This document shows positions 24,931 to 30,883 of a stretch of DNA of 56,704 bases, piece by piece; positions within the stretch are counted from its first letter, which is position 1, and each line of letters starts with the position of its first letter. The notes below the pieces were generated by a model. It ran no database searches, was not told where the DNA came from, and saw only the letters and a program-made list of their open reading frames with translations. The stretch lies in assembly GCA_030592645.1 (NCBI GenBank), contig JAUVIR010000011.1, forward strand, positions 1 to 56,704. The letters run 5' to 3'. This DNA is from Candidatus Fermentibacterota bacterium. Lineage in GTDB: Bacteria > Fermentibacterota > Fermentibacteria > Fermentibacterales > JCC-6. The position numbers and the translations under genes are program-made.

Positions 24931-26166
24931 TTACTGCTTCTCAGGGAGCAGGGATCTCATGTTGACTGTTGAAGGGATAACGGGATAGTCAATTACAACC
25001 CTGTATGTCCTGAACTTTGAGGGATCCCACTTAAGCTTGAGAAATACATCCTCTATCATGTCGGTATACCATTGTATGTATGGTGTATAGGTAGCCTTTA
25101 TCCCCATTCCGAGTTTATGGATGGAAACATTCATAGGAAGGCAGCTGTGGGGGTTTCGGAATTCTGCCGGCATTGCCCAGTCGTATCCTGTAAACTCGCC
25201 GAATATAAACAGCTCCGGGTCAAGAGGGCCGATCAGGTCGACGTGGACTATCTGATCGAAAATAAGCCTCTCCACGGGTGTTCTGGCTCTGACCAGAACC
25301 TCTCTGTACCTGTCTTCCCTGGTCCTGTAACTTTTAAAGACATCGCGGGTTATCTGAGCCGTAATACACGTAATTGATTCTGTATTGCCGATAGGAGCTT
25401 CCTCAAGTTCATGTACAGTGCGCCCCGCCCGTTTACGGGAACTTACAACATTAGGCAACGGTTCCGAACAGAAGCTGTAGTAAAATGGCACACCCATGGG
25501 GTTGTTCGAATCAGGATCTCTTTTCTCGATGGGCTCGACCTTTATCATGCCTTTCGGAATATTGTCATCATCCGTGAAGTAAGCCCATTCAAGCAGCCAT
25601 GGGACATTCGGCCTGTTCCTTTTGAAATCGATAAAGCCTCTGATGCTTGCTATATCATGGTTTTCTCCATCGGCCGAGGGAGAGAATATCCATGTGCACA
25701 GCTGTGTGCTTGCCTGCGCTCCGAGAAGATGGCTGTATGCAGTAAAAGCCGCCTTCTGTTGAGACAGGTAGGCTTTGGATCGGCCCTTGTCAGAACAGGA
25801 GAGCAGCATCAGGTCGAATTCCTTCCTGCTGTCAGCATGCTTTTCAACCAGCATGTCGAATTTTTCGCAGGCCTCCTTTGCTTTTTGAAGAAGTTTCTTT
25901 GAGGTACCCTGTTTTCTGCAGCTCTTCATGAAAGTTGTGCAGGCAGCTTTACCCGGTACGAACTGAGCAGCAATAAAAGGATCTACTTCACAGGCGACGT
26001 TGTAGATCTTCCAGCCGAGTTTTTTATCTATCTTCAGTTTTTTGTAAACATCCTTGGGGTTATCAAGAGAGATATCCAGCGAATAAAGTATATCACCAAG
26101 CGCGTTTTTCATGAGGATTATAACTGGGTCTAAATCCTCACTGAAACAAGAATCATTATGATTCAT
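24931..26166 (-). CDS. Hypothetical protein of unknown family
   Basis: Long ORF. Start chosen at MNHNDSCFSEDL with GGAGGGA upstream. No family recognised. Confidence 0.6.
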   Translation of the reverse strand: MNHNDSCFSEDLDPVIILMKNALGDILYSLDISLDNPKDVYKKLKIDKKLGWKIYNVACEVDPFIAAQFVPGKAACTTFMKSCRKQGTSKKLLQKAKEACEKFDMLVEKHADSRKEFDLMLLSCSDKGRSKAYLSQQKAAFTAYSHLLGAQASTQLCTWIFSPSADGENHDIASIRGFIDFKRNRPNVPWLLEWAYFTDDDNIPKGMIKVEPIEKRDPDSNNPMGVPFYYSFCSEPLPNVVSSRKRAGRTVHELEEAPIGNTESITCITAQITRDVFKSYRTREDRYREVLVRARTPVERLIFDQIVHVDLIGPLDPELFIFGEFTGYDWAMPAEFRNPHSCLPMNVSIHKLGMGIKATYTPYIQWYTDMIEDVFLKLKWDPSKFRTYRVVIDYPVIPSTVNMRSLLPEKQ

Positions 26167-26373
26167 CAGTAGAACTCCCTCCGGAACAGTATTAGATCGA
26201 ATATGTCTATTGTAAGGAAAAATATCAAGGCGAAGATAATTTCTGGATATTGTTTGATATTCGGTTCTTGACACGTTTCCGGAAACAAGAGATATTTGTT
26301 CACTGATAGAATTCCTTCTGAATTCGCTATGCATTGTTAAGCTCTGAGATTATCCCTTTTCCTTGGAGCTTCA

Positions 26374-26400: not shown

Positions 26401-26477
26401 GCCCATATTGCTGGAGTGGATAGTGGCACTGTACAATTACGTAGTTAAATACTATGTATATTCTGAAAGGAGATATT

Positions 26478-27473
26478 ATGAAAATACTGCTCTTCTTACT
26501 TCTGGTTCTTGTGACAGTATCGTTTTCGGCTGAGAGGGTTGTGCTGTGGGAGTATTTCACCCAGACCGGTTGACCCGCATGTTCCAGCGGCTGGCCAGCT
26601 GTTAAGACTGCTCTTAACCCCTTTGTCGCCTCCGGGGATCTTGCACCCCTTTACCTGTTTTACAACGGTCCGGGGGCAAATTCGTTCTGTTCCGGAAGAT
26701 TCAGTTTCTATGGCGTGACAGGTACGCCAACAGTGAAAATCGATGGTTCAGCAGCAAGTTACAATCCGTCAACATACGCGTCTGCTATCAACGCTAGGCT
26801 TGCTGTACCTGCGTACATCGATTTTGATATCAACTTCGTGGGTGATGCCTCCGGAGGCATGGCATACTACAGTATCACAGCCGAACAGGAGCCTGCCGAA
26901 ACTTACACCATCAAAGTATGGTCTGCGATCCTTGAGGATCACGAAATGGCTAACTCCAGCTGGGGTGGCTACAATGGGCAGGAGATGATGTGGATTCCGG
27001 TTGCGTATCCACTGGGTTCCCAGGGGAAGGTTCTGAACTTCACCGGGCCATATCCACAGACCATCAGTGTAGCCGGCTCCTATACGCTGAATCCGTCACT
27101 GCACCCATTCAATAACCTGAATGTAGCCACTTTCGTTCAGTACGCTTCGGGAACACGGAAAGTGCTCAATGCAAACTTCATGGACCTTCCGGATTCTGCC
27201 ACGGGTGTATACGGTGATGAGACCGCTTCGGGATCTGTAGCTGTGCTGAACGTTGCTCCAAATCCGAGCAATGGACACCTTTCTATAAACTGCCTGCTTC
27301 CCGCGGAGGAAACAGGAACAATCCAGGTATTCGATATTACCGGACGAGTTGTTGAGAGTTTTCCAGCCGATGAAGCTGCAAGTGCTTTCATCGAGGAAAG
27401 CGGAGTCTACTTTGTGCAGCTTACCACCAGCAGCGGCGAGATCATCAAACGCCGGCTCTCAATAATCCGTTAG
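26478..27473 (+). CDS. Putative selenoprotein: secreted thioredoxin-fold protein with UxxC motif and T9SS-type sorting-like C-terminus (TGA at 26571-26573 read as Sec)
   Basis: ATG 26478 preceded by AAAGGAGAT. Signal peptide MKILLFLLLVLVTVSFSA, then ERVVLWEYFTQTG-[TGA]-PACSSGWPAVKTALNPF...FYGVTGTPTVKIDG...VAPNPSNGHLSIN...FDITGRVVESF...IIKRRLSIIR*. The only in-frame stop in 331 codons is that TGA, at a redox Cys position. Confidence 0.8.
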
Positions 27474-29084: not shown

Positions 29085-29705
29085 TCAGGTCTGGACACAT
29101 ACGTTGATCCCGAAATGTTTGTCCAGATAAAATGCAAGACGTTCCTTCGCATCTTCCTCACACTTGCCGCAGGAGGTGCCCACCTTTGTCATCTCCTGAA
29201 GCTGATAGTAATTGCGAGCTCCCTCAAGTACGGCATGTTCGATCTCTTCCTCAGTGATATTGAGACATTCGCATACGATTCTTGATTCTGCATCGTGAAC
29301 CTTTTCGAACATACCGTGTCCGCGATAATAGTTATTGATGGCCTCTGCAAGGGCTTTGTCTCCGAGTACAGAGCAGTGAACCTTGTTGTCCGGAAGGCCG
29401 CCCAGTTCGTTCATAATATCCACGTTGGTGATATTGCGTACATCTTCGAGGGACATTCCCTTTATCATCTCGGACAGGACCGATGTGCTCGCTATGGCGC
29501 TTGCGCATCCGAAGGTCTTCCATCTGCAGTCGGTGATCGTAAGAGTATCGGGGTCTATCTTCAGATAGAAGATCATCTCATCACCGCATTTTATGTTGCC
29601 TGTCTTGCCTTCGGCATCGAACTGGAAATCCTCGTCGTCGAACATGATGTTCCTGGGGTTCATGAAGTGATCTTTGACCTTTTCCGTGTAAAGCCAGGAG
29701 CTCAT
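29085..29705 (-). CDS. NifU/IscU-type Fe-S cluster scaffold with BFD-like [2Fe-2S] domain
   Basis: YTEKVKDHFMNPRN, GNIKCGDEMIFYLKI, TFGCASAIASTS, NKVHCSVLG. C-terminal CECLNITEEEIEHAV...GTSCGKCEEDAKERL. Confidence 0.9.
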   Translation of the reverse strand: MSSWLYTEKVKDHFMNPRNIMFDDEDFQFDAEGKTGNIKCGDEMIFYLKIDPDTLTITDCRWKTFGCASAIASTSVLSEMIKGMSLEDVRNITNVDIMNELGGLPDNKVHCSVLGDKALAEAINNYYRGHGMFEKVHDAESRIVCECLNITEEEIEHAVLEGARNYYQLQEMTKVGTSCGKCEEDAKERLAFYLDKHFGINVCVQT

Positions 29706-30883
29706 CGTTCACCTCCGTAAACAGTGGACATTCTTCGCAGTTTCTTGACGATCCGGGGAAGAACATCCAGAACGTAATCAACCTCTTCGCGGGTTGTCGA
29801 CCTTCCCATGCTGAATCTGAGAGAGCCATGTGTGAATTCAATTGGAAGGTCCATTTCCAGGAGGACATAGGATGGGTCAAGGGATCCTGACGCGCATGCG
29901 GAACCGGTTGAAACCTCTACCCCCTCGTAGTCAAGGTAAAGAAGAAGTGCTTCCCCTTCAACCCCTTCAAAGGAAACATTAAGTGTAGAGTGAATGCAGT
30001 ATGCAGGATCACTGTTGAAATGGATGTTCTCGATCCGGCTCTCTATTCCTTCTCTTAGTATTCTGTTAAGCCCGGTCAGACGTTCAGATTCCGCTTTCAT
30101 CTCGCTGGCGCGGAGTTCAACCGCCCTTCCAAGACCTACGATGCCGAGTGTGTTCTCGGTACCTGCCCGCCTCCCCATTTCCTGATGGCCGCCCCTGATC
30201 AATGGGCAGAAGGGAGTGCCCTTTTTCACGTACAGAGCTCCAACCCCCTTTGGACCATAGATCTTGTGAGCTGAGATGGTGAGGAAATCAACATCAAGCT
30301 TTTTGACATCCAGGGGTATTTTACCAACCGCCTGTACAGCATCTGTATGGAACATTGCCCCCGAGGCATGCGCTATTTCAAGAGCTCTTTCGACATCCTG
30401 AATTGCGCCTGTTTCGTTGTTCACCATCATAATGGACACAAGCGATGTATTCCCCGATACCGCCTGCTGCAGATCGTCCATTCTAACAAGCCCTCTTTTG
30501 TCCACACCTATGCGCTTAACAGTGGTTCCTCTGTTTTTGAGACATTTCGATGTCTCAAGGATGCAGGGGTGCTCAATAGTTGATATAACAAGGTCGCTCT
30601 CAACCGGTGCATGCAGGCTGCATCGGGCTCCGCTGCAGCTTACCAGTGAAAGCACAGTGTTATTAGCCTCCGAGCCGCTTCCAACGAACATGATCTCTTC
30701 CGGGTCAGCGTTTATAAGCCCGGCAACCTTCTCCCTGGCATCTTCGATAAGAGTTCTGGCCCTTCTTCCATCTTCGTGAAGACTGGAAGGGTTTCCGAAC
30801 ACGTCGATTGATTCGATAATTGCTTTCTTTACCTCAGGATGAAGAGGTGTTGTAGCGTTGTGATCAAGATATATCCTTTGCAT
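29702..30883 (-). CDS. Cysteine desulfurase, NifS/IscS-like
   Basis: YLDHNATTPLHPEV, GSGSEANNTVL, HTDAVQAVGKIPLDV, LTISAHKIYGPKGVGALYV, STGSACASGSLDPSYVL. Overlaps the downstream scaffold gene (ATGA). Confidence 0.95.
   Translation of the reverse strand: MQRIYLDHNATTPLHPEVKKAIIESIDVFGNPSSLHEDGRRARTLIEDAREKVAGLINADPEEIMFVGSGSEANNTVLSLVSCSGARCSLHAPVESDLVISTIEHPCILETSKCLKNRGTTVKRIGVDKRGLVRMDDLQQAVSGNTSLVSIMMVNNETGAIQDVERALEIAHASGAMFHTDAVQAVGKIPLDVKKLDVDFLTISAHKIYGPKGVGALYVKKGTPFCPLIRGGHQEMGRRAGTENTLGIVGLGRAVELRASEMKAESERLTGLNRILREGIESRIENIHFNSDPAYCIHSTLNVSFEGVEGEALLLYLDYEGVEVSTGSACASGSLDPSYVLLEMDLPIEFTHGSLRFSMGRSTTREEVDYVLDVLPRIVKKLRRMSTVYGGER

Follow-up and report, generated by a model that had tools for sequence, protein, structure and literature searches.

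A predicted selenoprotein of Fermentibacterota with a thioredoxin fold and a T9SS sorting domain

Results

The gene and its in-frame TGA codon

The analysed DNA, a stretch of 56,704 nt (the window), contains at 26478–27473 one gene whose codon 32, TGA, is very probably read as selenocysteine (Sec). The product is in all likelihood a selenoprotein of Fermentibacterota (genus Ca. Aegiribacteria) with a SelB-dependent Sec32, which would be exported by the T9SS and act as a surface U32–C35 oxidoreductase, the Sec form of the HBP35/Omp28-like thioredoxins. The computed support comprises the exchange between TGA and Cys, the covariation of the SECIS hairpin, the Sec machinery, the fold, and the sorting domain, and the recoding of the codon 32 TGA is strongly supported.

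The genome of the window (G000) is 2.58 Mb in size and 93% complete. The closest relatives of the window protein are from Candidatus Aegiribacteria and Candidatus Fermentibacteria (candidate division Hyd24-12) in the phylum Fermentibacterota. Direct reading of the frame indicated that the TGA is its single internal stop, and the start codon, the ribosome-binding site, and the length of 331 codons given in the first-pass annotation were all recovered when the sequence was read again (Table 1). Ordinary ORF calling yielded just a fragment of 252 codons with a GTG start (26715–27473), as had been stated there. TGA is the terminator of 16 of the 32 large ORFs in the window and is therefore used without global reassignment, in agreement with the earlier view that genome-wide recoding is unlikely. 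Further TGA sites of the UxxC/CxxU type were looked for throughout the window, but none was convincing as a selenoprotein, and the remainder resembled chance frames.

Table 1 Positions of the gene and of its predicted features in the window.
Feature	Position	Strand	Basis
Whole selenoprotein gene (predicted), T9SS-tagged HBP35/Omp28-like thioredoxin-fold protein with Sec32	26478–27473	+	331 codons and TAG at 27471–27473
Shine-Dalgarno motif AAAGGAGAT, ~3 nt 5' of the ATG	26466–26474	+	Sequence; orthologs are preceded by the same motif
N-terminal signal peptide (predicted), residues 1–18, MKILLFLLLVLVTVSFSA	26478–26531	+	Read from the sequence; helix 2–15 in the model; A18 invariant in 44 members
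Thioredoxin-fold domain, residues ~20–110, UxxC at 32–35, cis-Pro loop GTPTVKIDG (P84)	26535–26807	+	Model mbf921e52e740; Foldseek match to HBP35 (5y1a); PDB profile matches to thioredoxins
In-frame TGA, codon 32, U32 of U-P-A-C	26571–26573	+	46 unique TGA members at the column, Cys in paralogs; tRNA-Sec, selA, selB, and selD in the genome
bSECIS hairpin, 7-bp stem 26586–26592/26597–26603, loop GGCC 26593–26596	26586–26603	+	19 nt after the TGA; published criteria and covariation
Beta-sandwich (Ig-like) middle domain, residues ~112–238	26811–27191	+	Secondary structure of the model; Foldseek
T9SS type A C-terminal sorting domain, residues 259–326	27252–27473	+	TIGR04183 and PF18962 above cut-offs

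Conservation of the TGA codon

Genes from related genomes were translated with TGA left open and aligned. TGA was present at exactly the codon-32 column in 50 aligned genes from 27 Fermentibacterota genomes (46 unique genes after duplicate removal and 4 added later), while 26 paralogs have Cys at this position. Of the first set of 78 frames, in which some overlapping loci were counted twice, 49 had TGA and 26 had Cys, whereas 3 partial genes lacked a residue at this column; a count by hand gave 51 TGA copies in 27 of the 42 Fermentibacterota genomes. Among 60 related genomes, most near-full-length orthologs (down to ~40% identity) had exactly one in-frame TGA, and all close orthologs (59–81% identity over the whole length) had exactly one TGA, at the same codon. 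The open frame with its TGA is well outside what chance would give. The codon-32 TGA is also present in independent assemblies of other species. The TGA column is aligned with the first Cys of the CxxC motif of the paralogs (CGPC, CGYC, or similar), and when TGA is read as C, neither C32 nor C35 varies in the alignment of 44 rows. The first-pass annotation had placed the TGA at the first Cys of a CxxC motif and had proposed a search for homologs with Cys or Sec there; the homologs carry one or the other, and the Cys of the paralogs agrees with this placement.

Comparison with the nearest orthologs indicated purifying selection on both the 5' and 3' sides of the TGA (pS of 0.35–0.71 and pN of 0.00–0.16). 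Several family members use TGA both as the Sec codon and as the final stop. In the tree, the Sec copies were divided into two groups, and most of the Cys copies came together in a single large group. The Cys gene L056, however, was placed inside the Sec clade, which indicates at least one switch between Sec and Cys. The genome of the window also encodes a paralog of the window protein with Cys in place of Sec (CGPC; L045:813–1823, G000:C39), which is without the SECIS hairpin. In other Fermentibacterota, two or three Sec copies were found in tandem (G039:C41:15906–19223, G040:C31:5740–9119, G022:C107:18736–20857, and G021:C12:161084–163193).

SECIS hairpin

A search 3' of the TGA, as proposed in the first-pass annotation, identified a covarying hairpin that lies within all of the published limits for bSECIS elements: a loop of 3–9 nt, a stem of 4–16 bp, a G in the first two loop positions, a distance of 16–37 nt from the UGA, and an MFE of ≤ −7.5 (PMC13188914). 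The window hairpin has a 4-nt loop, a stem of 7 bp, a distance of 19 nt, and a fold energy of −12.5 kcal/mol, a stability that is not unusual for its composition (z = −0.84). Because Rfam searches at the gathering threshold and at E values up to 10 gave no match to the hairpin, the element was judged by the published criteria and by covariation.

When 42 genes were aligned without gaps, the nucleotides at +13 to +19 relative to the TGA paired with those at +24 to +30 across a 4-nt loop. In these genes, 92.9% of the stem cells were paired, and compensatory changes on both sides were observed in four of the seven pairs. The covariation of the stem was 0.369 compared with a mean of 0.186 for shuffled data (0 of 500 shuffles were as high), and the values of slid versions of the stem were far lower. 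RNAalifold returned the same stem minus one pair. On average, 6.5 of the 7 stem positions were paired in the TGA genes as against 2.8 in the Cys paralogs, which lack the hairpin, and a few divergent members pair solely in a shifted register.

Selenocysteine machinery

The source genome encodes SelA, SelB, SelD, and tRNA-Sec, the set used as a criterion for bacterial selenoproteins, and every gene for which the first-pass annotation had suggested a search (selA, selB, selC, and selD) is thus present. Specifically, selA (511 bits) is on the same contig as selB (344 bits) and directly 5' of it, tRNA-Sec was detected with 75 bits (gathering score of 47) and with a UCA anticodon by ARAGORN, and selD scored 322 bits. 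The selD gene of G000 (L087, G000:C25:33494–34420, − strand) also codes for a selenoprotein; its in-frame TGA lies in CAG-U-AGK, in agreement with the UxxK Sec motif listed for SelD. Of the 27 Fermentibacterota genomes in which a TGA copy occurs, 26 have selA and/or tRNA-Sec; the exception, G004, is 67% complete.

Fold, predicted export and comparison with HBP35

The AlphaFold2 model (mbf921e52e740), calculated from the family alignment, had a mean pLDDT of 88.6. The first helix following strand 22–28 begins with the UxxC motif, and Pro84 is nearly invariant. The model, Foldseek, and the PDB profile matches agree on the thioredoxin fold with a cis-Pro loop that had been recognised in the first pass. 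In the C-terminal part of the model, a flexible linker (residues 242–251, low confidence) is followed by a small beta domain. The suggestion of a T9SS-type sorting domain at the C-terminus was borne out by scores over the cut-offs for TIGR04183 (39.3 bits, cut-off of 23) and PF18962 (32.4 bits, cut-off of 27), and TIGR04183 was matched by all 44 aligned members. PHROGs gave no match for the window protein.

The top PDB fold match in Foldseek was HBP35 of Porphyromonas gingivalis (5y1a), with an E value of 3.3e-15, a TM score of 0.57–0.60, and a high rmsd; as the TM score is 0.57 with a high rmsd, the packing of the domains differs or is uncertain. HBP35 was also the top sequence-profile match (over residues 21–319), in which its CxxC motif corresponds to U32 and C35. 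HBP35 (PG0616/PGN0659, 344 aa) and the window protein are similar in length and have in common a signal peptide, a thioredoxin domain with a redox motif, a middle beta domain, and a T9SS C-terminal domain, and thus the architecture and fold of the latter are HBP35-like. However, HBP35 has Cys where the window protein has the predicted Sec, and the sequence identity is ~16%. HBP35 has been described as a Por-secretion-dependent surface protein (PMC3120885). The recombinant protein reduces insulin, and mutation of C48 and C51 abolishes this activity; both the disulfide reductase activity and hemin binding are known for HBP35 only (PMC2907840).

The search for T9SS genes in G000 covered the translocon and the sortase, and both an SprA-like gene (433 bits) and a PorU-like gene (430 bits) were found over the cut-offs. 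The T9SS cargo features recognised are a signal peptide (from the sequence only), a sorting domain over the cut-off, and genes for the translocon and the sortase in the genome. The sorting domain and the T9SS genes predict a surface location for the window protein.

Relationship to known selenoprotein families

An inventory of 119 prokaryotic selenoprotein families (2026) includes the "hypothetical protein GOS_C" with the model NF045500 (PMC13188914), a thioredoxin-fold UxxC protein found in 2008 in marine metagenomes (PMC2398784); the NCBIfam name of this model is "Omp28-related selenoprotein". The window protein had no match to NF045500 at E ≤ 1, and none of the genes in 42 Fermentibacterota genomes reached its 200-bit cut-off, while 25 of 44 family members matched it weakly. 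PF11551 (Omp28) was matched at E ≤ 0.1 by 29 of the 44 members, with a best value of 6.3e-12. The window protein matched no selenoprotein model, which would favour a wholly new family, but this reading was rejected since its relatives match NF045500.

The window lineage shares the thioredoxin-like fold and the UxxC motif with NF045500/GOS_C and differs from it in being compact and T9SS-tagged. As for the Omp28 family (PF11551 and NF033782), relatives match PF11551 whereas the window protein itself does not; NF033782 is named as an outer membrane lipoprotein family and, to current knowledge, has Cys. Sec-containing thioredoxin and the DsbA/DsbG-like selenoproteins also have UxxC at a thioredoxin-fold active site but are different families. 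A T9SS sorting domain is described for none of the 119 families of the inventory. The literature searched, in which subscription papers were few, did not link Fermentibacterota to selenoproteins or selenocysteine, nor Omp28 to selenoproteins, although an earlier mention is possible; the lone paper found for T9SS and selenoprotein concerns a CRISPR array of P. gingivalis. The window lineage may fairly be placed in a family whose Sec form is already known, as a new branch with a T9SS tag. The first-pass annotation had regarded the protein as an unusual selenoproteome member. The T9SS-tagged branch is unreported in the literature searched, but the novelty was overestimated, as an Omp28-related selenoprotein (NF045500/GOS_C) already exists.

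Wider relatives and gene neighbourhood

Longer proteins, often of ~690–850 aa, with the same N-terminal domain occur in a second phylum-level group of 39 genomes around G048, and 20 genes that were inspected carry TGA in place of the first Cys of the CxxC motif. The Sec-bearing, mostly longer relatives in this group are L138, L151, L160, L161, L163, L165, and L171–L184. tRNA-Sec was found in 11 of the 12 second-group genomes with TGA copies; in G082, which has two TGA copies, it was searched for and not found. Six second-group genomes of one family (G069–G074) unusually have two tRNA-Sec genes each over the Rfam cut-off. A relative with TGA at the first active-site Cys (FMANWUPAC) is located on a Phycisphaerae contig (L137:3001–3345). 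SECIS-like hairpins, inspected as single sequences in the second group and L137, were visible in many but not all of the wider relatives.

In the window, the gene is followed on its 3' side by genes (29085–30883) for a NifU-like protein (BFD-like [2Fe-2S] domain) and a class V aminotransferase (NifS/IscS-like), whose order is conserved in close relatives. A cysteine desulfurase could also mobilise selenium. These downstream genes and the upstream region 24931–26334 are syntenic in close relatives. The conserved neighbours were considered as functional partners, but the pattern resembles general synteny and does not point to a partner.

Discussion

In the proposed mechanism, SelB with Sec-tRNA(Sec) would bind to the hairpin just 3' of the UGA, and Sec would be put in at codon 32 in place of termination. 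The signal peptide would direct the protein to the general secretory path for passage of the inner membrane, and the T9SS would recognise the C-terminal domain and bring the protein across the outer membrane. At the cell surface, the U32–C35 pair would work as a thiol-disulfide oxidoreductase. The actual insertion of Sec and the surface location, as well as the catalytic direction, the substrate, and the reductant, are what we infer; the simplest guess is that the protein reduces surface disulfides, by analogy with the reduction of insulin by HBP35 in vitro.

The fragment given by gene callers (26715–27473) is what a pseudogene or a sequencing error would leave, with the TGA as a nonsense mutation or a misread TGT/TGC and with either the product starting at GTG 26715 or nothing made. 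This explanation is very improbable, because the same TGA occurs in dozens of genes and in independent assemblies, selection acts on both sides of it, and the hairpin covaries; moreover, the fragment would be without the signal peptide and the redox motif. We give as little credence to a genome-wide reassignment of TGA or another suppressor tRNA, by which the residue would be Trp, Gly, or Cys. The paralogs have Cys, and Cys at the UGA would thus fit the alignment alone, but TGA ends half of the large ORFs in the window and several members of the family itself, and the full Sec machinery and the SECIS are in place.

A refinement of the Sec reading is that partial readthrough is regulatory, so that the full-length surface protein tracks the selenium supply and the Cys paralog serves in scarcity. 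UGA readthrough in general depends on the selenium supply, and the separate Cys paralog (L045) in the same genome is in line with such a role. We regard this refinement as unlikely, since nothing separates it from ordinary Sec insertion.

Beyond the single gene, the window protein probably belongs to a phylum-wide and repeatedly duplicated family of T9SS-exported selenoproteins, whose Sec relatives extend to two or more other phylum-level groups and which would be engaged in extracellular selenium redox chemistry (thiol-disulfide or other). The finding adds a clear, covariation-backed selenoprotein lineage to an uncultured phylum for which none was reported in the literature searched. In standard annotation, all genes of this kind would be split or missed, and the active site would be lost. 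As Sec insertion is joined to a T9SS tag, the selenium redox site would face the cell exterior. Sec and Cys paralogs occur in the same genomes and a Cys copy is nested in the Sec clade, and therefore the benefit of Sec over Cys is directly testable in this family.
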